From the NCBI RefSeq assembly GCF_001625215.2, contig NC_030385.2, forward strand, positions 44,417,598-44,481,597: 64,000 bases of DNA, written 5' to 3'. This stretch comes from Daucus carota subsp. sativus (lineage: Eukaryota > Streptophyta > Magnoliopsida > Apiales > Apiaceae). The translations under genes and the position numbers were made by a program. The notes below the pieces were generated by a model, which searched no databases, was not told the DNA's origin, and saw nothing but the letters and a program-made list of their open reading frames with translations. Positions 7,982 through 63,804 of the stretch are shown one piece after another; position 1 is the first letter of the stretch; every line of letters starts with the position of its first letter.

Positions 7982-10900
7982 ATGGCTCAGATTCAAGCGC
8001 AGCCGCAGCCGATTCCGGTGACTGGAGCCAACGGCGTGGCGCCGCCCGCCGCCGCTGCAACGACTTCGCTCTTTGTCGGAGACTTGGATTACAATGTAAC
8101 CGATTCGCAGTTGTACGACTTGTTTAATCAAGTCGGACAAGTGGTCTCGGTTAGGGTTTGCAGAGATTTGAGTACGGGGAGGTCGCTCGGTTACGGCTAT
8201 GTGAATTACAGCAATCAGCAAGATGGTGAGTCACTTGCCGTTTGTCTCTAATTTAGTTTGTGTTTTTATCTATTGATATGAGGCTATGTCGTGTTTTAAA
8301 TGTTTGTTAGTTGTTAATTTGTTATGTTTCCTGTATGGAAATGTAATTTGTTGATGCGGTAGGGTTTTTAGTTGTTAATTTGTTATGTTTGTGGAAGCTT
8401 GGTTGGTAGATGAAGATGAATTGTGTCCTGTATGGAAATGTAATTTGTTGATTTGTTGATGCGGCAGGGTTGTTAGTTGTTAATTTGTTATGTTTGTGGA
8501 AGCTTGGTTAGTAGATGAAGATGAATTGTGTCCTGTATGGAAATGTAATTTGTTGAATTGTTGATGCGGTAGGGTTGTTAGTTGTTAATTTGTTATGTTT
8601 GTGGAAGCTTGGTTAGTAGATGAAGATGAATTGTGTCCTGTATGGAAATGTAACTTGTTGATTTGTTGATGCGGCAGGGTTGTTAGTTGTTAATTTGTTA
8701 TGTTTGTGGAAGCTTGGTTAGTAGATGAGGATGAATTGTGTGCTGTATGTAAATGTAATTTGTTGATTTGTTGATGCGGTAAGGTTGTTAGTTGTTAATT
8801 TGTTATGTTTGTGGAAGCTTGGTTAGTAGATGAAGATGAATTGTGTCCTGTATGGAAATGTAATTTGTTGAATTGTTGATGCGGTAGGGTTGTTAGTTGT
8901 TAATTTGTTATGTTTGTGGAAGCTTGGTTAGTAGATGAGGATGAATTGTGTGCTGTATGTAAATGTAATTTGTTGATTTGTTGATGCGGTAAGGTTGTTA
9001 GTTGTTAATTTGTTATGTTTGTGGAAGCTTGGTTAGTAGATGATGATGAATTGTGTCCTGTATGGAAATGTAATTTGTTAGATTTGTTGATACGGTAGGG
9101 TTGAAATTGTGAATGAAATGTGACGGAACGGCGTGGAGCCTAATTGATGGTTTTGGTTTATGTTAATTTGTAATTGAGGCGAAATGTTGATTGTTGTAGT
9201 GTTTTCGATCTGGAATTCAGTGTTTAATGGTTGTCTCAGAAAACTTAATTGGTAAACCAGACTAAAAGTCTTTCCGTGCTTTAATGTGAAACCTAAACTA
9301 TAGTATATGCTTTTTCAGCCCTATTTCTTGTGTTTTTATGTGAAACCTAATCATGTATCCTGTGTTATACCTATTTCCTGTGTATTAATGTGAAAACCTA
9401 AATTGTATATACTTTGTTACCCCTATTGAATGTTTCAACTTCACTTTTTTTTAATCAGTGGATATTAACCACACAAGGGCATGAAAGGTATTTTTGAACC
9501 AGTATTAGTATCGACACGTGTACTAATACTATCACGACAGACCTATCAAACATTTATTATTACAAGCGCATTTATTATTACTAGCATAATGGAACTGTGC
9601 AACAGCTCAATTGATTGACATGCATAAATTTTCTTAATTGGGAATGTTTAAAACATATGTTTCTAATATCGAATTTAAAGACATTACAAACATAACGCTT
9701 CATCTCAGTTAGAATGAATATATGAATATTTGTGCCACTCCCATAGATATAATCATTTCCCTTTCAGCGAGTCCTGTTACCAACATGTACAATTTGCTAT
9801 GTTAATGGACATGGAGAACACCCTGAACCTTTACAGTTATGTGTTTGTACATTATAAGTCCTCCTGAAGTGATATGTAACATTTTCATCTTTATCTGTAT
9901 TCAGGGGCCAGGGCACTCGACGTCTTGAATTTCACTCAGCTGAATAACAAGACTATTCGAGTTATGGTTTCTCATCGCGATCCTAGCAAACGGAGGAGTG
10001 GAACAGCTAATATCTTTATCAAGGTATTAAGAAACATTAGAGTTTTACATGTAATTCTGCGTGGTCATTGATAGCGACTCACCTATTCATCAATATGCTT
10101 TGGTTGCTATGGTTTCACATGGTCAAATTTTGTCCCCCGTAGAATAGAGTTACCTATGTCATTATACTTAAAGTTAATAATTCTTCCAATTTAATATTTG
10201 CGCAGAACTTGGACAAATCGATCGACAACAAAGCCTTGCAGGATACCTTTTCAAGTTTTGGAACTATCCTTTCCTGCAAGATAGCGACCGATAATTCTGG
10301 CCAGTCTAAAGGCTATGGGTTTGTCCAGTATGATAGTGAAGAAGCTGCTAATACTGCAATTGAAAAGCTAAACGGCATGTTAATGAATGACAAACAAGTT
10401 TATGTTGGCATGTTTCTGCGTAAGCAAGATAGAGAGACTGAGATAAGTAAGACTAAATTTAACAACATTTATGTGAAAAATTTGTCCGAAACGACAACTG
10501 AAGAGGAGCTTAGGGAAATTTTTGGTGAGCATGGAACAATTACCAGTGTAGTAGTAATGAGGGACGGAGATGGGAAATCAAAGTGTTTTGGGTTTGTCAA
10601 CTTTGACAACCCTGAAGATGCAGCTAAAGCTGTTGATGCGCTGAATGGAAAGAAGTTTGACGATAAAGAGTGGTATGTTGGCAAAGCTCAAAAAAAATCT
10701 GAAAGAGAAGTCGAGCTAAAAAGTAGATTTGAGCAAAGTGTGAAGGAGCAGGTGGACAAATTTCAAGGGCTTAATCTGTATGTTAAGAACTTGGATGAAA
10801 CCATTGATGATGAAAAACTGAAGGAATTGTTTTCGGAATTTGGAACTATATCTTCGTGCAAGGTTAAATGTTGTTCATTGTTTTTTTTTCCCCATTGTGT

Positions 10901-44990: not shown

Positions 44991-45079
44991 TGCAAGTGAA
45001 AACACTCTTATTTTTCGTAAGTTCTTGGATAGGAGAGTTGAGTAGATTGAGGCATTACAGAACAATCTGCAGTAAGGGA

Positions 45080-47350
45080 ATGGGATTGGTTAAGGTGAGT
45101 TTTCTGTTATGTGCATGGCTGTTTTTTATGGTTTTTCATGGTAGCTTAACTTTAGCAGATGATGAGAGATCTAGTTATATTGTTCATATGGACAAATCGT
45201 TCATGCCAAAGGCTTTTGCTAGTCATGAGCATTGGTATATGTCTGCGATTGAGTCTGTTAAGTCTACGAGTCATGCTTATGGTCCGACCCTCATCTACAC
45301 TTATGATAATGCATTCCATGGTTTTAGTGCATTGTTGTCTAAGAATGAACTGCAGACTCTTGAGAAGTCGTCAGGATTCGTGTCTGCTTATAGTGACAGG
45401 ACTGTCACACTGGACACAACGCATACTTTTGAGTTCCTTTCGCTCAATCCTGCCACGGGGTTGTGGCCTGCTTCCAATTATGGCAAAGATGTTATCATTG
45501 GTGTCATTGACACGGGAGTCTGGCCTGAGAGCGCGAGCTATAAGGATGATGGGATGACTGCGGTTCCTTCAAGATGGAAGGGGACTTGCGAGGAAGGGCA
45601 AGAATTTAATGCTTCACTCTGTAACTTGAAGCTCATTGGAGCTAGATACTTTAACAAAGGTGTTATAGCTAAGAACCCTGATGTTAAGATAAGCATGAAC
45701 TCTGCCCGGGATTCTATGGGTCATGGTACACACACATCGTCAACTGCAGGTGGGAACTACGTCGAAGGGGCATCCTTTTTTGGCTATGCCTTGGGAACTG
45801 CAAGAGGGATGGCTCCGCGTTCCAGGGTGGCAATGTACAAGGTCCTCTGGGATGAAGGACGATATGCATCTGATGTTCTTGCTGGTATGGATCAGGCAGT
45901 AGCTGACGGAGTTGATATTATATCGATATCCATGGGCTTTGATGATGTGCCTCTATATGAGGATCCTATCGCCATAGCTTCCTTTGGTGCAATGGAAAAA
46001 GGTGTGCTTGTTTCTTCATCCGCTGGAAATGAAGGGCCACGCACCGCAACCTTGCACAACGGCATTCCATGGGTCTTGACTGTTGCAGCAGGCTCAATAG
46101 ACCGATATTTTGCAGGGACCTTGAGTCTGGGCAACGGGTTGGTCATCACCGGATGGACCGTGTTTCCTGCAAGAGCCAAAATCCGAAACTTGCCCTTACT
46201 ATATAACAAAACCATGTCTCTTTGTGATTCCGATGAGGTGTTATCTGGAGCTCCTTCTGCTGTCATTGTATGCAGTGACACAGGCTCATTTAGTTCACAG
46301 TTATACTACATTTCTAGATCAAACGTTGCTGCCGCTATTTTTATCACAGACTCTCCTGACGTATTTAAGTCTCAACTGTTTTCTTACCCTGGAGTTGTGG
46401 TTAATCCCAAAGATGGAGCTGTTGTAATTAAATACGCAAGAAGTTCTTCTGAACCATTGGCTAGCATCAAGTTTCAACAAACATTCGTGGGCACAAAACC
46501 AGCACCTGCAGTTGCCGACTACAGTTCAAGAGGCCCCTCACCAAGTTATCCCGGGATATTAAAGCCAGATATAATGGCACCAGGGACATTAGTCTTGGCT
46601 TCTTGGATACCATATGATAGTGTAGCCTATATAGGTAACAATATCGAGTTGTCAAGCGACTTTAATCCAATTTCAGGGACATCCATGTCTTGTCCTCATG
46701 CTTCTGGTCTCGCTGCTCTCCTAAAAGGTGCACACCCCGACTGGAGCCCTGCTGCTATTCGGTCTGCAATGATGACCACAGCCAACCCCTTGGACAATAC
46801 GCATAACAGTATCCAAGACATTGGAACAGGTTTTAAATCTGCTACCCCATTAGCAATGGGATCAGGCCACGTAGACCCTAATCGTGCACTTAATCCAGGC
46901 CTTGTATACGATGCCACAGCACAAGACTACGCTAATCTTCTCTGTTCTATGAACTTCACGCAAAATCAAATCAATGCAATCACAAGAGCCAGCTACAACT
47001 GCATGAACAAGTCCTCTGATTTAAATTATCCGTCTTTTATCACCTTGTACACTAATCAGACTAGTGGCCGAACATTGCAGCAGACGTTTTACAGGACAGT
47101 CACCAATGTCGGAGATGCAGCAGCTACTTACAAGGTCAAGGTGACAGCGCCAAAGGGTTCAATTATAACGGTTTTGCCAGATACATTGATGTTTCAGAAG
47201 AAAAACGAGAAGAAGAGCTACACCATGACTATTAATTTCAAAGCTGTGACTCCTGCTGTTACACATGGTTCACTTGTTTGGATTGAGAAGAATTCTAAGA
47301 ACACAGTTAGGAGTCCTATTGTAATATCGCCTGCAGTAGATATGTGGTAA
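45080..47350 (+). CDS. Subtilisin-like serine protease, SBT1 (SBT1.9-like) class, intronless
   Basis: A secreted plant subtilase. From the ATG at 45,080 the product is 756 residues with a clean signal peptide (VSFLLCAWLFFMVFHGSLTL). The frame is open upstream to an earlier ATG at 44,996 (784 residues), but that start would put a polar stretch before the signal peptide, so the second is preferred. Order: I9 propeptide (SYIVHMDKSFMPKAF to about TLDTTHT), catalytic Asp144 (VIDTGVWPES), His215 (GHGTHTSS), oxyanion Asn317 (SSSAGNEGP) and Ser535 (GTSMSCPHASG), with a PA domain inserted between His and Ser, then a C-terminal fibronectin-III-like domain (RTVTNVGDAAATYKV). All catalytic residues are intact. 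The mature N-terminus is expected at TTHT. It forms a tandem pair with the next gene. Specific SBT1 subclass is from memory. Confidence 0.93.
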   Translation: MGLVKVSFLLCAWLFFMVFHGSLTLADDERSSYIVHMDKSFMPKAFASHEHWYMSAIESVKSTSHAYGPTLIYTYDNAFHGFSALLSKNELQTLEKSSGFVSAYSDRTVTLDTTHTFEFLSLNPATGLWPASNYGKDVIIGVIDTGVWPESASYKDDGMTAVPSRWKGTCEEGQEFNASLCNLKLIGARYFNKGVIAKNPDVKISMNSARDSMGHGTHTSSTAGGNYVEGASFFGYALGTARGMAPRSRVAMYKVLWDEGRYASDVLAGMDQAVADGVDIISISMGFDDVPLYEDPIAIASFGAMEKGVLVSSSAGNEGPRTATLHNGIPWVLTVAAGSIDRYFAGTLSLGNGLVITGWTVFPARAKIRNLPLLYNKTMSLCDSDEVLSGAPSAVIVCSDTGSFSSQLYYISRSNVAAAIFITDSPDVFKSQLFSYPGVVVNPKDGAVVIKYARSSSEPLASIKFQQTFVGTKPAPAVADYSSRGPSPSYPGILKPDIMAPGTLVLASWIPYDSVAYIGNNIELSSDFNPISGTSMSCPHASGLAALLKGAHPDWSPAAIRSAMMTTANPLDNTHNSIQDIGTGFKSATPLAMGSGHVDPNRALNPGLVYDATAQDYANLLCSMNFTQNQINAITRASYNCMNKSSDLNYPSFITLYTNQTSGRTLQQTFYRTVTNVGDAAATYKVKVTAPKGSIITVLPDTLMFQKKNEKKSYTMTINFKAVTPAVTHGSLVWIEKNSKNTVRSPIVISPAVDMW

Positions 47351-48733: not shown

Positions 48734-51031
48734 ATGGCTGCACAAATCCATTTCAATGTATGCATTCTCTTGATTACAATTTCACAGTTCATTTTCACTT
48801 CATTAGCTCATGGTACAGATTCTTACATTGTTCATATGGACTTATCAGCCATGCCAAAAGCCTATTCTGACCACCACAGCTGGTACTTGGCCACCCTTGC
48901 CTCAAGAACCGAGGAGTCGAAAATTAGCACAACCACAATTCCCTCATCCTCAAAAATTATTTATACCTACACTAATGCCATGCATGGTTTCAGTGCAGTT
49001 CTTTCTGATTCCGAGCTCGAATCCATCAAAAGCTCACCAGGGTATGTTTCTTCTTTTAGAGATGTTCCTGTGAAACTTGACACAACTCATACCTTCAAGT
49101 TTCTTGACCTCAACTCCAATTATGGTGCATGGCCGGAGTCTGATTATGGCAAAGATGTCATTATAGGCGTAATTGACACCGGGGTTTGGCCAGAGAGTAA
49201 GAGCTATGATGATTATGGCATGGCACCTATTCCATCCAAATGGAAGGGGACATGTGAAATTGGTACACAGTTTAATTCCTCTTTGTGCAACAAGAAGCTT
49301 ATTGGAGCGCGGTACTTTAGTAAAGGCTTGCTAGCAAGGCATCCTAATGCCACCATAGCAATGAATTCTGCTCGCGACACTGATGGACATGGCACTCACA
49401 CCTCCTCCACGGCTGCTGGAAACTATGTAGACAATGCATCATATTTCGGTTATGCCTATGGAACGGCTAGAGGCATGGCCCCAAATGCTCGAGTTGCCAT
49501 GTATAAGGCCTTGTTTGATGAAGGCTCTGCCTCTTCAGATATTTTGGCTGCAATAGACCAGGCAATAGAAGATGGCGTTGATGTCTTATCAATATCCTTG
49601 GGATTAGATGGTGTGGCTTTCTTTGAAGATCCCATTGCAATTTCGACGTTTGCAGCCCTTGAGAAGGGCATATTTGTTTCAACTTCTGCAGGCAATGAAG
49701 GGCCTTATCTAGAGACACTACATAACGGCACACCATGGGTTCTAACAGTTGCAGCTGGTTCAATTGACCGCGAATACCTTGCATACATAACCCTTGGAAA
49801 TGGAGCTGTAATAACAGGCCAAACACTCTACCCGGGGAACTCAACATCCGGCCAGGATTATAACATTCTTTTCAAGGGTGCATGTCACAATGACACAGAG
49901 CTTAAGGAGGCTGGGGAAAATATTGTACTGTGCCAATTTGAGAGTGGTGATGCACTCACTGAGCAAGTGTATGCTTGTGTAAGTGCAAATGTTTCTGCCG
50001 CTATTTTCATAACAAACAGCTCAGACTTGGGGCTCTTTCTTCAGACCTCTTTTCCAGCTCTCTTATTGAATCCACAAGATGGTGAAACAATATTGAATTA
50101 CGTCGACTCAAATGAGAAGGCAAAAGCTAGCTTTGAATATCAAAAAACTAGTTTGGGTACCAAACCAGCACCTAAAGTAGCTGCCTATAGCTCGAGAGGA
50201 CCATCGCCTAGTTGTCCATTTGTGTTGAAACCTGACATTCTGGGACCTGGTGACCTTGTTCTAGCTTCTTGGCCTAGCAATGTGGAAGCCGCTCGAGTTG
50301 GCTCAACTGAATATTTCAGTGACTTCAATCTGTTATCTGGTACCTCAATGTCATGTCCACATTTGGCAGGGCTTGCGGCGCTGCTCAAAGGAGCTCACCG
50401 CGACTGGAGCCCTGCAGCAATCCGGTCTGCAATGATGACCACAGCAGACTTTTTGGACAATACAAACAGCCCAATCCAAGATATTGGTTATAACCAACCA
50501 GCCACTCCTTTTGCCACTGGAGCTGGCCATGTCAATCCGAACAAGGCCTTGGATCCCGGGCTCATATACGATGTAAACGCATTAGATTACATAAATCTCT
50601 TATGTGCTCTGAATTACACCAGCAAGCAAATACAAACTGTTACAAGAACAGGTACAAACAACTGCTCCAGTCCCTCACTGGACCTCAATTACCCTTCTTT
50701 CATCGCCTTCTTCGACGCAAGTGATTCAGGTGTCCTGGCTCAGCAAGAATTTCAAAGGACTGTGACTAATGTTGGAGATGAAATATCAGTCTATGAAGCA
50801 AAAATTACCCCAATGGATGGCTTGGTAGTCAGAGCTGTCCCTGATAAATTGGTTTTTAAGGAAAAATACGACAAGCAAAGCTACAAATTGGTTGTACAAG
50901 GTCCGCGAAAGCTGAAAAGCAGCATCATTCATGGCTCTATCAGTTGGATCCAAGTTGGAGGTAAACATGTTGTCAGGAGTCCGATTTTGGTTACAAATCT
51001 CAGCTCCGATATTTTGCCAGGGGATGACTAA
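48734..51031 (+). CDS. Subtilisin-like serine protease, SBT1 (SBT1.9-like) class, intronless
   Basis: A second secreted subtilase of 765 residues, about 1.4 kb downstream of its paralogue and on the same strand. It has a signal peptide (ICILLITISQFIFTSLAHG-like, residues 1-26), an I9 propeptide (SYIVHMDLSAMPKAY), catalytic Asp148 (GVIDTGVWPES), His219 (DGHGTHTSS), Asn321 (STSAGNEGP) and Ser538 (GTSMSCPHLAG), an inserted PA domain and a C-terminal fibronectin-III-like domain (RTVTNVGDEISVYEA). There are many N-glycosylation sequons (NSS, NAT, NDT, NVS, NYT). The two proteins share long blocks (YGKDVIIGVIDTGVWPES; RDWSPAAIRSAMMTTA), so they arose by tandem duplication but have diverged clearly. 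The ATG is the first after a good TATA box. Confidence 0.94.
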   Translation: MAAQIHFNVCILLITISQFIFTSLAHGTDSYIVHMDLSAMPKAYSDHHSWYLATLASRTEESKISTTTIPSSSKIIYTYTNAMHGFSAVLSDSELESIKSSPGYVSSFRDVPVKLDTTHTFKFLDLNSNYGAWPESDYGKDVIIGVIDTGVWPESKSYDDYGMAPIPSKWKGTCEIGTQFNSSLCNKKLIGARYFSKGLLARHPNATIAMNSARDTDGHGTHTSSTAAGNYVDNASYFGYAYGTARGMAPNARVAMYKALFDEGSASSDILAAIDQAIEDGVDVLSISLGLDGVAFFEDPIAISTFAALEKGIFVSTSAGNEGPYLETLHNGTPWVLTVAAGSIDREYLAYITLGNGAVITGQTLYPGNSTSGQDYNILFKGACHNDTELKEAGENIVLCQFESGDALTEQVYACVSANVSAAIFITNSSDLGLFLQTSFPALLLNPQDGETILNYVDSNEKAKASFEYQKTSLGTKPAPKVAAYSSRGPSPSCPFVLKPDILGPGDLVLASWPSNVEAARVGSTEYFSDFNLLSGTSMSCPHLAGLAALLKGAHRDWSPAAIRSAMMTTADFLDNTNSPIQDIGYNQPATPFATGAGHVNPNKALDPGLIYDVNALDYINLLCALNYTSKQIQTVTRTGTNNCSSPSLDLNYPSFIAFFDASDSGVLAQQEFQRTVTNVGDEISVYEAKITPMDGLVVRAVPDKLVFKEKYDKQSYKLVVQGPRKLKSSIIHGSISWIQVGGKHVVRSPILVTNLSSDILPGDD

Positions 51032-53860: not shown

Positions 53861-53865
53861 CTTCA

Positions 53866-54009
53866 ATCATAGATTTTTGAGAACTTAGATATCAAGATAT
53901 ATGCCGACGAGACTACAAAGGCCCTATTTGGGGATTAATCATAGATTTTTGAGAACTTAGATATCAAGATATATGCCGACGAGACTACAAAGGTCTTGTT
54001 TGGGGATTA
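53866..54009. repeat. Two-copy 72-bp tandem duplication
   Basis: Unit 1 begins at 53,866 (atcatagatttttgag) and unit 2 at 53,938; each ends tttggggatta. The copies differ at about three positions near the end. The second copy continues straight into DNA rich in the word 'ggggattagctg/agcggattgaatta'. Confidence 0.9.
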
Positions 54010-56889: not shown

Positions 56890-59246
56890 ATGCACACCAA
56901 AACCGACTCCGAGGCCACCAGCCTCTCCCCCTCCTCCCCCACCCACTCCCCCCGCCGCCCCGTCTACTACGTCCAAAGCCCCTCCCGCGACTCCCACGAC
57001 GGCGAAAAAACCGCCACCTCCTTCCACTCCACCCCCACCGCCTCCCCTCCCCACTCCCACTCCTCCGTCGGCCACCACTCCCGCGACTCCTCCTCCACCC
57101 GCTTCTCCGGCTCTCTCAAACCCGGATCCGCGAAAATCCCGCCCTCTGCAAAACCCGGCCACAAACAAATCGCGGTCATCGATGAAGAAAATTATTATGA
57201 ACACGAGAAGACTAGTAAAGGCGTGCCCAGACGCTGTTACTTTGTTATATTTCTGTTGGGCTTCTTGGTTCTCTTCGGGTTGTTTTCGCTGATTTTGTGG
57301 GGCGTTAGTAAACCGCAGAAGCCTGAGATTACTGTTAAGGTTAGGCTGGTGAATTGAATTTGCAATATTTTGTGGGAATGTGAATGTGTGATTACAATTG
57401 TTGTGGTTTTGGTTTGTAGAGTATAAAGATGGAGACGTTTGTGATCCAAGCGGGCTCCGATGGTACTGGAGTGGCTACTGATATGGTGACTATGAATTCG
57501 ACTGTGAAGCTTGTTTTCAGGAACACTGCTTCGTTTTTCGGTGTTCATGTTGCTTCGACTCCGGTTGATCTGTCTTATTCTCAAATTACTCTGGCTTCCG
57601 GAGCTGTAAGTTTTGCCCAATTATTGATTCTGCATAATTATATGAATTTTCAATTAATAATTTGCTTGTTTGTAATGCACTAGTACTAACTTACTCGGAT
57701 GCATTTAGTAGTAAATATATGAACGTGAGTATTACTACAAGTAGGGGTGATCGCGGTGCGGGCGGTGCGGTTTTTGGCTAAAACCGCAAACCAAACCGTG
57801 TGTGCGGTTTTGTCAATTTCTCAAACCGCAACCGCACCGCAAAGTATTAAAACCACGTAAACCGCACCACAAAAAGGCGGTGCGGTTGCGGTGCGGTTTA
57901 TGCGGTTTATACATTTAAAATAGTCCTTTAAAATCAAATTATAAAATTTGTTAATAATTAAATATTCTTTGGGGAGAATAAAATATAAATGATGAAAAAA
58001 AAAGTCACGAATTGGCTTAAATTGAACTACTGCATTTAAACAAATTTGCAAGCAAAGAATAAGTACAAATTACAAAAACATGCCAGAGGCACTGGCCAAC
58101 ACAAGAGGCACTGGCCTTCTGCTTGCATGTGTTGTAGTAATATATAAACATAGTTCACGAAATGTAATATGTCTTAAGAAAGATAGTGTTAAATAATGGT
58201 ATTCTAATTTAGACATGAGTTTTTTTTTTAAAATTAATTTAGAAATGAGCTTGATAGTTAATGTAGAGTTGTCAAATACATATATCTATAATATATATTA
58301 TTAATAATATATTTTTTAGATAATATATTAAATGCGGTGCGGTGCGGTTTGAACCGCATTTTATAAAAGTAAAACCGCAATCCGCACCGCACCTTGCGGT
58401 TTGACATCAAACCGCACCCGCACCACAAAATTTAAAAACCACGTATCGCGGTGTGGCTTGGTGCGGTGCGGGCGGTTTTTGCGGTTTATGCGGTTTGATG
58501 ATCACCCCTAACTACAAGACTCCAAACCTCTGAGCTCAATTTTAGCTATACTCTTAGTATTGACATGTCTTTCTTAAATATTGTGAAACTAGTAGGTTGC
58601 GACTCAATTTAGTTGACTTGACTCATTCCACATTCCACATTCCAATTGAGCTGAATAAGTTGTGAGTTCGAATATATGATCAAACCAAACCTCTGTGTGA
58701 CACGGGAAAGTGGAAATGTTACTTAGAATTAGAAATTAAATCCATAGTAGGTATGAATTTGAGTAGAATACGATTGAATCTTAGTAGGTGTGGTAAGAAT
58801 TAAGATTGGTATGAGAGGGGAAGGACGGTGAGGTCCTGCACTGTCCTTTGTTGTGGTTCCGCAAATTTTGTTTGGAAACTTTACTCTCCTAAACCATATC
58901 ATTAGCGTTGTTCAACAGTTTGACCTAGTGCAATTTTTTGAATTTTTTGGTGGCGCAGATTAAGAAGTTCTATCAATCAAGGAAGAGTCAGAGAACGTTG
59001 GCAATATCAGTGAATGGAAACAGGATACCATTGTACGGCAGTGGAGCAAACTTAAGCAGCAACACCACAGGAAGTCCGACCCTGCCTGTGGCGCTAAAGT
59101 TAAACATGATAGTGAAATCAAAAGGTTCTGTTCTGGGAAAATTGGTGAAACCAAAATTCAAGAAGAAAATCGAGTGTTCAGTTGTGTATGATCCAAAAAA
59201 ACATAGCGCGCCCATCTCACTCAAGAACTCCTGTACGTATAAGTAA
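56890..59246 (+). CDS. LEA-2 / NHL-like single-pass membrane protein, three exons
   Basis: A plant membrane protein of the LEA-2 (NDR1/HIN1-like) fold, similar to Arabidopsis At1g45688/At5g42860; its molecular role is unknown. Exons: 56890-57339, 57420-57605, 58959-59246, GT-AG and phase 0, giving 307 residues. The N-terminal 100 residues are cytosolic and Ser/Pro/His-rich, with the conserved block RRPVYYVQSPSRDSHDGEKT and a basic stop-transfer motif (GVPRRC). One membrane helix follows (YFVIFLLGFLVLFGLFSLIL, about 119-142), then the LEA-2 beta-sandwich with TMNSTVKLVFRNTASFFGVH, KKFYQSRKSQRT and VLGKLVKPKFKKKIEC. Exon 1 is strikingly C-rich (Ser/Pro codons ending in C), unlike the rest of the gene. 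The protein is slightly shorter than Arabidopsis homologues because the Pro-rich loop is reduced. A hAT element lies in intron 2. Confidence 0.92.
57734..58518. mobile_element. Non-autonomous hAT element with 8-bp target duplication
   Basis: Element 57,742-58,510 (769 bases) starts taggggtgatcgcggtgcgg and ends gcggtttgatgatcaccccta; the outer 11-12 bases are inverted repeats. It is flanked by identical actacaag copies (57,734-57,741; 58,511-58,518), the 8-base duplication typical of hAT. Subterminal regions are packed with direct and inverted gcggtgcggtttgcggtt words, likely transposase-binding repeats. It carries no coding sequence and sits in intron 2 of the LEA-2 gene. Confidence 0.9.
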
Positions 59247-59249
59247 GAT

Positions 59250-60050
59250 TAAGACATTTTGTGGGTAGTTTAATCAAATGATGTTTCCAGCTAAGAAGGT
59301 GTGGCTTTTGAGTTGGCAGGCAGACAGGCCGGACATTACAGAACGCCCTTGTAGAAAAAATGGGTGTACTTTGGTGGTGGTTTTATCAGTGACAACTCAT
59401 AGTTTTTATATTTTCCACTGTTTATGTGAAGTTAATTATTGTACTCAAGGGATAGATTATACCAGTATAGAGTTTTGTATTTTTTTTTGATATTTTATAA
59501 ATAGTATGTATTAAACAACATAGCAGAGTTTCATATTATTTTATATTATCTAGTTAGCTCACATTTTTTTTTTTTGAACAAGCAGCTTATGTCCTCAGTT
59601 CCTCGCATTTAGAAAGCTTTGTAATCTGGGAATGATTGGAGGTTAGCGAGAGTCATAGAGTCGAAGCTTGAACTTGGGATAGATAATAGATTATCTATGA
59701 TGCACCTGGGACAGGTAATATAGTAATCTAATTATCTATGAATTATGATCGCAACAAAAATAGAGGTTTCACTTGGAAACACACTCCAACCATTTTTTCT
59801 GGCTAATAATGCAAGAGGAGAGAAGGGTGTTTAAATTTTTAGGGTTTAATTGCAATTATTATACAAGAACGGACAAAAGTGTAACCAATATTTACAAATG
59901 TTTACCAAAAGTACATAGGTAGATATACATAAACCAGATTAGTAGATGTTTCTAGTTTAAACTGCATCTGTTAAAAACAGCGTTAGAATTTAAATATTGG
60001 CTTAGGATATAAGAGTATGTGCACCGGATTATGTTTTGCGCTTTCAAAAA
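59250..60050. other. LEA-2 trailer and intergenic region
   Basis: Likely 3' trailer to about 59.5 kb, then AT-rich DNA with no gene recognised. Confidence 0.5.
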
Positions 60051-60057
60051 GAGTTAG

Positions 60058-60221
60058 AGTTTCCTGTATATAATAAGTCAATGTATATATATATTTCTAT
60101 TTTTTACGGAGTATTAATTCAAATTGATACTTATTTATAATAAAATTAGAATATAAAACTAGATTTGTTATAATTAATTTGTATTATAATATAAAAAATT
60201 TAAATAATAGAATGATGGGTG
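60058..60221 (+). repeat. 164-bp direct repeat, left copy
   Basis: This copy begins agtttcctgtatataataag and ends agaatgatgggtg. It is matched at 61,990-62,153 with a single difference (attaga versus attgga) and brackets the nested transposon. Confidence 0.95.
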
Positions 60222-60613
60222 ATCACGGTCTGGTTTAAACCGCAAAATCCGCATAAACCAATCCGATGTTAATCCGATCCAAACCGAAACCGAAATGAGG
60301 TTTACGGTTTTGGTTCGACTAATTTAAAAAACCGTGGTTTGTGGGTTGGTTTCGGTTTTATATTAAACCAACCCGTTATAAAACCGAACCGCATATTTAT
60401 ATATATACAATATAAATATTTAATATTATATATATATATATATAATATTAATTTTATATAAATATATTAATTTTTTAATTTATACTTGTTGGATTGTTGT
60501 TTAGTTACATATCTTGTCAATACCAACTACAACTCTACAAGTCATATCAATTCTATGATCCACGACTTCGACTTCGATTCAAGTTTATGCATTTTATTAG
60601 ACTAAAGTTTGTA

Positions 60614-61732
60614 TTTTAATTTAGGGTTAATAATCAAGTGAGTCATCAAAGTGGGCTTGATATATCAAGTTGGTCACCGAACTCAAAACGGTCTCAAATT
60701 GGTCACTCAAGTCAGTTATATGTATCAGTAAATATGAATTCAAGGAGTAAAGATATTATTTATAGAGATTTAAATATTATTTTTGAATGTTACCACAACT
60801 AAATACAAGATTATGACTTCTCGTATTTATGAAAATATATTTAGATTTTATCAAGTTTATTTACTATTTATTTTTTATTAGGGTTAAATATCAAAGTGGT
60901 CACTGAAGTGGAGGTCATATATCACTTTACTCACTAATTTTATCGGGGTCTCATTTCAATCATTAAAGTCACAATAAATATCAATTAAGTACCTCCAAAT
61001 TTCAGTTCAAAGAGTAAAAATATTATTTAGAGAGTTTGACACATTATTTTTGAATACTACCACAACCAATTAAAAGGTTATGACTTCTAGCATTTATGAC
61101 AATATATTCAGATTTTATCAATTTATATTTAGTATTTATTTTTAATTAAAACAAAAAAATGTATTAATATAATAAAAAATAAATAGTAGATAAAATTTAA
61201 AAAATCTCAATATATTATCATAAATAGTAGAAGTCAGAACCTTTTACTTGGTTATGGTAGTATTCAAAAATAATATGTTAAACTCTATAAATAATATTTT
61301 TACTCCTTGAACTGAAATTTGGAGGTACTTAATTGATATTTATTGTGACTTTAATGATTGAAATGAGACCCCGATAAGATTAGTGAGTAAAGTGATATAT
61401 GACCTCCACTTCAGTGACCACTTTGATATTTAACCCTTTTTTATTATATAGTTTTTTTCTTTATTTTAATTATAAATATATAGTAAATAAACTTGATAAA
61501 TCTGAATATATTACCATAAATATCAGAAGTCATGATCTTATACTTAGTTCTGGTAAAATTCAAAAATAATATGTAAACCTCTATAAATAATATATTTACC
61601 CCTTCAACTTATATTTACAGATACATATAACTGACTTTAGTGATCAATTTGACACCGTTTTGAGTTCAGTGACCAACTTGATATTTTGAGCCCACTTTAG
61701 TGACTCACTTGATTATTAACCCTTTTAATTTA
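60614..61732. mobile_element. Mutator-like foldback MITE (outer), split by a relative
   Basis: Element 60,624-61,722 has long terminal inverted repeats of about 110 bases (gggttaataatcaagtgag at the left, gattattaaccc at the right) and is flanked by 10-base duplications ttttaattta (60,614-60,623; 61,723-61,732). A 9-11-base duplication with long inverted repeats indicates Mutator-like elements. It sits inside the second hAT-like element and contains 60,881-61,436. Confidence 0.85.
60871..61446. mobile_element. Mutator-like foldback MITE (inner)
   Basis: Element 60,881-61,436 (556 bases) is almost wholly an inverted repeat: arms of about 250 bases (starting gggttaaatatcaaagtgg, and its mirror ccactttgatatttaaccc) separated by a short centre. 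It is flanked by ttttttatta on both sides (60,871-60,880; 61,437-61,446). Its arms resemble those of the outer element (agtggtcactgaagtgg versus agttggtcaccgaact), so a family member inserted into its own relative. Confidence 0.9.
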
Positions 61733-61989
61733 ACTATGTAAAATTGTGCAAATGGAGAGAAAATGATACTTTATTTTCTAGTATTATTCATGAATTCTCA
61801 TCTCTGATTATAAGTCTTAGTCATAAACCGATCAATCCGCTTAACCGAACCATCAAAAACCGCACCGCTTGGTCCGGGTTAATTGGTTTGCGGGTCACGG
61901 GTTGGTTTGAGATTTTAAAAAACCGCTAATGTACGGTTTGGTTCCGGTTCTACCTACAATCCGAACCAAACCGAACCGCGATCACCCCT

Positions 61990-62153
61990 AGTTTCCTGTA
62001 TATAATAAGTCAATGTATATATATATTTCTATTTTTTACGGAGTATTAATTCAAATTGATACTTATTTATAATAAAATTGGAATATAAAACTAGATTTGT
62101 TATAATTAATTTGTATTATAATATAAAAAATTTAAATAATAGAATGATGGGTG
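61990..62153 (+). repeat. 164-bp direct repeat, right copy
   Basis: It is identical to 60,058-60,221 except for one base. It starts at the right end of the hAT-like element and ends with gatgggtg, the same word that overlaps the left terminus of the element. Confidence 0.95.
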
Positions 62154-62364
62154 TTATTAAATCAAAAATATATACAAATATTATATATTTATAACTAATA
62201 TATAATATAATATTTATATATAAATTTGATATTTATATCATATATGAAAATCGGGACGGAGACGTTGTTCCCTTAATCCGAGCGATCCAAATTTTTTATA
62301 AAATTTTTCCCGATCACTTGAAAAAATTGTGATTCTCCGACTCGAATGAGAAGAGAATAGGATA

Positions 62365-63804
62365 TTATTTATTAGTCTTAAACTTGTTAGTCTTGTACTC
62401 CATAACAAAAACACTAGAGTAGGTCTTTGTCAATATAATGGACAGAGGATGCGCAAAAAACAAGTGAGTTAAGTGTCCATTCTCATCTCGCTTAATATCA
62501 AAAATAAATCCATTTTGACCAAATTCTTCAAACAAAGCCTGAATATTAGAACGCTCATCCAAGCTTTCGTTCTTTATTTTTGCACGAACATTATACAAAG
62601 TCCTGGAAATTGCCTTAAGACTTGAATTACTTTGCCTGAGTAATGTAAGTATTTGGCGTGGTGGAATACCTACTCTTGTCATCACTTGAATTCTTTCAAT
62701 CTCATCTTTACTAAAACGGTGGCAAAAGGGATGACCAGACATATCTGTCGAAGGTTCATGATTATGAGACAAATTTTTTATATCCAACTTCCATACCCCA
62801 TTTTTTTTTCTTTTTCCCCAAACTTCAAATGGACAATCAATTAATCTTGATCCAGTCACTTTTCTTTTTTTCTCTTCGGGTGGTTTGGTTGCATGATATT
62901 TACCACCTCTGTCACAACCAATTATAACATAACGATTTGTCTTCGATTTTTTAATTTTTGTCACGAAACCTTTTTTCAAAACAATTTCACGAACATTGTT
63001 GAGAAGCTCTTCACGATTCAAAAAATCTTTTGTTGTAATAGATAATAGTATATCCGATTCTTTAGGACTTCGATTATCGACTACAGAATCATCTATATAC
63101 AAATGAAAATCACTAAATTAATAATATGTAGAGTGGAAGCGACTAAAGATTCTTTCTGCATTAGATATCAACATGGTAACTAAAATTCATGAATGAAACT
63201 TTAGAGGGGTGTATTCGATTGGAATTTTAATGGATTGTTTTTAGTCTATGGATTTTAATGGATTGTGTCTGATTTTGATTTTGTGCGGATTCTTGATAAA
63301 ATGTCGCAGAGTTGATAGGATTTAAGCACAATGCTTCAAAATCCCATTGATTTTGATGGGATTTCAAAAAACTTAAAATACACTGAAGAATGCCACAAAA
63401 TCCATCATTTTATGAAATGCAAAAAAATCCATCAGCATTTGAATACCATCAGATTTTAATGGATTTTAAACAATCCCAATTGAATACCATCGGATTTTAA
63501 AGTATAATTTAAAATCCCAATTGAATACCACCAGATTTTGTAGTATAATTTGAAATCTCAATTGAATACCTCAAGATTTTAATGGATTTCAAACAATCCC
63601 AATCGAATACCTTCGGATTTCATGAATGCAAAAAAATGCTTTAAAATCCCAATCCAATACACCCCACTTAGTCATGAAAATTACCTCTCTGAATAACCTG
63701 ATTGACATGTCCTAACTCGCATGCTTCGTAGAGCTCTTCCACATTTTTCGTCCGAACGAGTTCGATTATATCATTGAGATCTGCTAAACCTTCATCTTCA
63801 ATTT
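62365..63804 (-). pseudogene. Truncated FAR1-related / MULE transposase-like gene (partial)
   Basis: Exon 62365-63092 and a probable upstream exon 63685-63804 join in phase (NQVIQR|DDSVVDN) through GT-AG sites. The product has a FAR1-type WRKY-GCM1 zinc-finger DNA-binding domain (KKGFVTKIKKSKTNRYVI, GCDRGGKYH, DCPFEVWGKRK, LSHNHEPS). The start of the MULE transposase region follows (THLFFAHPLSIILTKTYSS) and ends abruptly at a stop after VFVMEYKTNKFKTNK. In intact relatives that point reads VFVMDCTYKTNK with the first catalytic Asp; here Asp is Glu and two residues are missing, and the whole DDE catalytic domain and SWIM finger are absent. No start codon is found, so the 5' end is beyond the window. 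It could still encode a DNA-binding-only protein. Autonomous transposase function is excluded by what is seen. Confidence 0.75.
63206..63665. mobile_element. MITE with 'ggggtgtattcgattgg' ends in the FAR1-like intron
   Basis: The left end ggggtgtattcgattggaat mirrors the right end atcccaatccaatacacccc. The 460-base interior is a chain of diverged short repeats of 'aatcccaattgaataccatc ggattttaatggatt' in both orientations. It lies between the two exons of the FAR1-like gene. No clear target duplication. Confidence 0.7.

Follow-up and report, generated by a model that had tools for sequence, protein, structure and literature searches.

Filler DNA was reportedly observed by Rubin and Levy in gap repair after Ds excision. 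For gap repair after excision, fillers of 13 bp on average (range 1–123 bp) are given by Roffler and Wicker (2015, PMC4423477). Repair-mediated duplications copied from donors less than 5 kb away show, in the account of Pace et al. (2009, PMC2671141), microhomologies of 2–9 nt and deletions of 1–15 nt, and sizes of up to 619 bp are reported there. In maize, three cases of a short direct duplication at the element are recorded among 7611 hAT insertions (2013, PMC3744419).

Here we analyze a locus in a 64,000-nt stretch of Daucus carota DNA (the window), in which a hAT-type element, E, lies between two direct repeats of 164 bp. The locus is best read as a known kind, a repair-mediated duplication, which is found here at a transposon end. 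As in the duplications by synthesis-dependent strand annealing (SDSA) of PMC2671141, the presumed donor is closer than 5 kb (here less than 2 kb away), the size is within the reported range, and the joint combines a microhomology of 5 nt (GGGTG) with a deletion of 3 nt (TAG); unlike in the cases set out there, a transposon terminus is the site of the break, and the element's own 8-bp target-site duplication (TSD) plausibly served as primer. The excision gap repair of PMC4423477 resembles it in the SDSA-copied filler at transposon breaks, but in that account the element is gone, whereas here it has been retained and the filler comes from its own other flank. The maize cases share with it a hAT element at which a short direct duplication starts and a TSD shared on one side; as presented in PMC3744419 they need two elements and precise ends, while here there is one element with one damaged end. 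Finally, Pack-TIR gap filling also involves template switching with microhomology at TIR elements, although the filler described is inside the element and here it is outside the terminus (PMC8277862). Among titles and abstract openings none described a flank copied from a TSD primer at a hAT insertion that was retained; this is a partial coverage, on which we base no claim of priority.

The duplicated flank and the insert

The features of the locus, with positions in the window, are as follows.

57742..58510 (+): sister hAT-type element, flanked by a normal TSD of 8 bp, ACTACAAG
59900..60058 (no strand): left flank U, with one match in the genome
60058..60221 (+): left 164-bp repeat; within it, 60067-60221 would be an extra copy of fam2 sequence made from a template, and 60067-60217 matches the fam2 consensus
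60059..60066 (+): putative left TSD copy, GTTTCCTG, 8 bp
60217..60221 (+): GGGTG, the junction microhomology common to the end of the copied tract and the left terminus of E
60217..61990 (+): E, a non-autonomous hAT-type element, 665 bp without nest1
60624..61722 (+): nest1, a long-TIR MULE-like MITE (GGGTTAATAATC) inside E, 10-bp TSD
60881..61436 (+): nest2, a related MULE-like MITE (GGGTTAAATATC) inside nest1, 10-bp TSD
61990..62153 (+): right 164-bp repeat, taken as the original; 61999-62153 is the presumed template
61991..61998 (+): putative right TSD copy, GTTTCCTG, directly after the complete right end of E
61999..62256 (+): fam2, an old dispersed MITE, left-truncated here, which runs on across 62153/62154

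The two direct repeats with one mismatch that an initial annotation had reported are present at 60058-60221 and 61990-62153. They are in register and have 16% G+C; the sole mismatch is at repeat position 91, with A on the left and G on the right. Both repeats open with A-GTTTCCTG, and the left one ends in GGGTG. The full-length sequence has these two places in the window, in which one further match is 74% identical over 81 bp. A search of the host genome (441 Mb, 11 contigs) gave relatives at 35 places, i.e. the two places here and 33 others with 72–95% identity, some across short stretches only. The left flank U (59900-60070) has one match in the same genome, in a search that skips very common words. 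A plain tandem duplication of 72 bp (53865-54008, 96% identical) occurs elsewhere in the window without an insert.

The initial annotation had also considered that the repeats could be terminal repeats of a defined element. Six aligned relatives run past the right end of the repeat as one continuing MITE. Paired ends of an LTR, TRIM or other terminal-repeat element were not seen at the places examined, which are part of the 33, and this reading is rejected.

The element E begins with GGGTGATCACGG at 60217 and ends with GATCACCCCTA at 61990. Its terminal inverted repeats are short and of a type that we take to be Ac-like. The right end is complete to the last base (TAGGGGTGATC, reading inward), and the right repeat starts at this clean terminus, as had been annotated. 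The left repeat overlaps a damaged terminus, which reads GATGGGTGATC in place of the expected TAGGGGTGATC: GAT stands where TAG is expected, the terminal TAG is missing and the bases outside GGGTG are absent. The inverted insert ends of the initial annotation are thus complete on the right and incomplete on the left. No TSD of 6–12 bp with at most one mismatch was detected within a few bp of E's present borders.

These ends bear on reversed-ends (alternative) transposition, as in the tandem direct duplications of maize Ac/Ds, with later loss of the first element. Under this process the repeats should begin precisely at an end of an element and share one TSD, and the published maize repeats include some of 116–148 bp (PMC3744419). 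The locus does not show the two elements, with a precise joint at the free end of the second, that this requires: it lacks the first element, no E is present at 60058, and the left repeat contains a single GTTTCCTG without a footprint. In addition, the joining (free) end of the middle element is not intact, since it lacks TAG, and a further precise loss would be needed. We consider this origin highly improbable.

The triple nesting of the initial annotation is real. The TSD of nest1, TTTTAATTTA, matches 10/10 at 60614-60623 and 61723-61732, and that of nest2, TTTTTTATTA, 10/10 at 60871-60880 and 61437-61446. With long TIR arms (226 and 245 bp) and these TSDs, both are MULE-like MITEs; the TSDs of MULE-like elements range from 9 to 11 bp. 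A MULE TSD length of 9 is given in PMC4423477. The entry point of nest2 (60881) is near the centre of the nest1 palindrome. Pieces of nest1 elsewhere reach 100% identity over 121 bp, and on this basis it looks like a young family. The nest1/nest2 junction is spanned at one place outside the window, with 85% identity, among the 40 of 1254 candidates that were scored.

The sister element at 57.7 kb has an 8/8 TSD (ACTACAAG), in agreement with the initial annotation. Its longest BLAST match to the right-hand 212 bp of E is just 76% over 89 bp, and hence it is related but of a different subfamily; what the insert ends have in common with this hAT element is the terminus. Among the four insertions (E, nest1, nest2 and the sister), the odd flank is found at E alone.

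Several other features of the window were recorded. An element at 63201-63670 has TTA on either side (TTAGAGGGGTGTATT ... AATACACCCCACTTA) and, inside, repeats at a spacing of 41 bp; presumably it is Harbinger-like. An array of 105-bp tandem units lies at 8241-9170, with inner copies 96–97% alike to the reference copy. An ORF of 245 aa on the minus strand (62365-63102) has weak matches to the AFT and FAR1 DNA-binding domains, the FAR1 match being below the cut-off. The ORF at 44996-47350 is subtilase-like and matched to Peptidase_S8; the neighbouring one at 48734-51031 is subtilase-like by eye.

Target-site habit and age of the E family

With the right 256 bp of E as query, 223 candidates came up, and the 40 of them that were scored, E included, stood at 93–100%. 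For the family sample 60 other loci were fetched; three (L069, L075 and L081) were unusable and 57 were assessed. An 8-bp TSD is present in 47 of these 57 copies (40 exact and canonical, five with one mismatch, two exact and shifted); L056 and L060 have the same TSD and may represent one event. The ten copies without a TSD comprise three in which the left end is present (L034, L063 and L082) and seven in which it is lost or eroded, the latter being counted as TSD-less. Exact termini are frequent, with TAGGGGTGATC in 17/24 copies and GATCACCCCTA in 22/24. The 8-bp TSD of hAT elements is hence the rule in this family; in the copy E it would be GTTTCCTG, which does not directly flank the left end.

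No direct repeat abutting both ends was found in any of the 57 copies, with at least 1066 bp of left flank and at least 898 bp of right flank searched. Direct repeats at one end occur in three copies (L049, L056 and L060); they are mostly 77–81% alike and accompany canonical TSDs, and one of those in L056 and L060 is an exact match of 22 bp. The TSD count and the lack of repeats at both ends together indicate that a 164-bp duplication is not the habit of the E family. The view of the initial annotation that this length is abnormal for a hAT element holds, and the family comparison that it had proposed returns the ordinary 8 bp. Odd left joints were noted in L034, which has an altered terminus and no TSD, and in L063, where two extra bases lie between TSD and element.

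The E copy is young. It has no private substitution in 665 positions, compared with 1–10 in seven close relatives, and its terminal branch length is 0.0015. It follows that the insertion and the duplication are of similar age and both recent, as the initial annotation had assumed for the event. Neither substitutions nor branch length resolve a time gap between the split of E from its nearest relatives and the duplication. No nest1 match was found inside E in the 57 assessed copies; one weak match in L073 lies outside E. The nearest relative, L030, is without nest1, so that nest1 entered E after that split.

The dispersed MITE at the right repeat

The sequence to the right of E belongs to fam2. 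A consensus of six copies matches 61999-62256 in one piece with 83% identity. The repeat plus the right flank has 50 matches in the genome, the window's own included; the aligned part of several dispersed copies starts at about 61999, crosses 62153/62154 and reaches about 62252. The alignment has no gap at 62153/62154 and a 1-bp gap 3 bp to the right; five of the six copies in it do not differ in length at this boundary. The fact that fam2 continues gap-free across the right end of the right repeat suggests that this copy is in its original context and that the left repeat is the likelier extra copy. At repeat position 91 the consensus has A, which makes the G of the right copy derived.

The same alignment bears on an origin that the initial annotation had listed, namely that flank and E were duplicated in tandem and the second E was later lost. 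Such an origin would explain GGGTG as a residue of the element, and GGGTG is indeed found in none of the six aligned fam2 copies. At its position these read GAGAA (twice), GAGGA, AAAAA and TTAGA, with one copy one base shorter; GGGTG differs from the consensus GAGAA at three of five bases. Judged from this alignment, a target sequence that diverged without a change in length is a more likely source of GGGTG than a residue of the element. The loss of a second E is disfavoured by fam2 itself, which has neither a gap nor a second TSD at 62153/62154 and is of equal length in all but one copy; a footprint at 62153 was looked for in the fam2 alignment and is disfavoured on the same grounds. The joint of the duplication would also have to coincide with the last base of E. 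We give this explanation very little credence.

Homology to fam2 begins exactly one base past GTTTCCTG at both copies. Either fam2 was already truncated and E inserted within 8 bp of that point, or fam2 was truncated in the same event. The missing left arm of fam2 was not found elsewhere in the window by a consensus search, and the two repeats are the only consensus matches in the window above 100 bp with at least 80% identity. The fam2 terminus is hAT-like in appearance (ATGCTCATCCCTA in L011).

Possible origins of the extra copy

We scored 8-mers with a matrix built from 44 distinct TSDs of the E family. GTTTCCTG is at the 94.6th percentile of flank 8-mers, at the 92.8th of window 8-mers and at the 92.0th when G+C is equal; among 401 local 8-mers it ranks 26th, with 25 scoring higher. 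For comparison, true TSDs that were left out of the matrix have a mean percentile of 77 and 41% of them reach the 90th, while the sister TSD ACTACAAG is at the 87th. If the shared A does not belong to E, the right-end site would be AGTTTCCT, with a score at the 12th percentile. The score suggests, weakly, that GTTTCCTG fits the TSD preference of the family. That the repeat starts with the TSD is a partly circular argument, because any model that starts the right repeat at the end of E duplicates these 8 bp; the matrix score alone is independent, and weak.

If GTTTCCTG is the TSD, the puzzle reduces to 156 bp of right-flank sequence inserted on one side, between the left TSD and E; this tract starts where copying from a TSD primer would and stops on GGGTG. 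The initial annotation had proposed that the insertion itself made a 164-bp target duplication; this is not supported in that form, since an ordinary 8-bp TSD is available at the site and agrees with the site preference. The microhomology that it had noted at gggtg is supported: reading from the TSD, no word of 5 bp or more is shared with the 11-bp terminus of E until GGGTG at 62149. In the window, 27 of 63990 positions have a run of at least 5 bases that matches TAGGGGTG, a count that includes the locus itself.

The reading that we favour, at about even confidence, is a normal 8-bp insertion followed by a one-sided repair copy of the flank that closed on GGGTG. Ordinary hAT transposition of E would have placed GTTTCCTG on either side. 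The left TSD/E junction may have broken at or soon after insertion, either through an unsealed strand-transfer gap or through a transposase cut, and the broken left flank ending in GTTTCCTG could then have annealed to the TSD on the right side of E, in the same chromatid or in its sister. The strand would have been extended 156 bp into the right flank, released, and joined to the left end of E via GGGTG, with loss of the terminal TAG. SDSA or polymerase-theta-like templated end joining could account for these steps. The empty site would be simple, with the single copy gagttaga-GTTTCCTG-TATATAATAAG...GGGTG-TTATT. Further points weigh against this repair copy. It leaves the exact start of fam2 after GTTTCCTG as an unexplained coincidence, the event is seen at no other family member (0/57), and the target origin of GGGTG is itself no firmer than likely.

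The first of these points is met by a variant in which the insertion itself broke the chromosome and both flank defects are one event; we regard it as rather unlikely. Here the 8-nt gaps of the strand-transfer intermediate would have been left unsealed. The right gap would have broken and E-GTTTCCTG joined inside fam2, deleting the left arm of fam2, and the left gap would have been mended by TSD-primed copying over the fresh E-GTTTCCTG/fam2 joint. This would explain why fam2 homology starts directly after the TSD at both copies.

The widely staggered breaks of the initial annotation are a live, though unlikely, rival. Nicks 164 bp apart, filled overhangs and capture of an excised E, with GGGTG on one side and A on the other, would produce both repeats in one step from the same empty site, and E and the duplication would be equally young, as they are. 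Tandem duplications of small size are known to arise from filled-in overhangs (PMC8355091). A staggered break gives no reason for the high matrix score of GTTTCCTG or for the complete right end, and it requires an E that was free and captured, not integrated.

The geometry also permits the mirror image of the favoured repair copy, with E beside GATGGGTG and the right repeat as the new one, made by TSD-primed leftward copying of the left flank. GATGGGTG is likewise exactly 8 bp at the end of the repeat, and a copying error could have produced the G that is derived in the right copy. The six candidate TSD sites at the left end score at the 24th–68th percentile, however; an additional deletion at the left end of E would be needed, and the microhomology at the other joint is 1 bp only. 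The mirror image is very unlikely.

An assembly or haplotype-joining artefact has a slight chance of being the cause. The one mismatch could be a haplotype difference, but the joints fall on the last base of E and on the microhomology, neither of which a mis-join would favour, and the left end of E is damaged as in a repair joint.

The locus shows how an apparent giant target-site duplication can come from an ordinary 8-bp TSD. Such structures can be mistaken for a new element, for terminal repeats or for a new mode of transposition. If the coupled break is the true course of events, failed sealing of hAT insertions would be a source of coupled deletion and duplication. If the TSD acted as primer, every insertion would carry short homology able to misdirect repair at its own ends.
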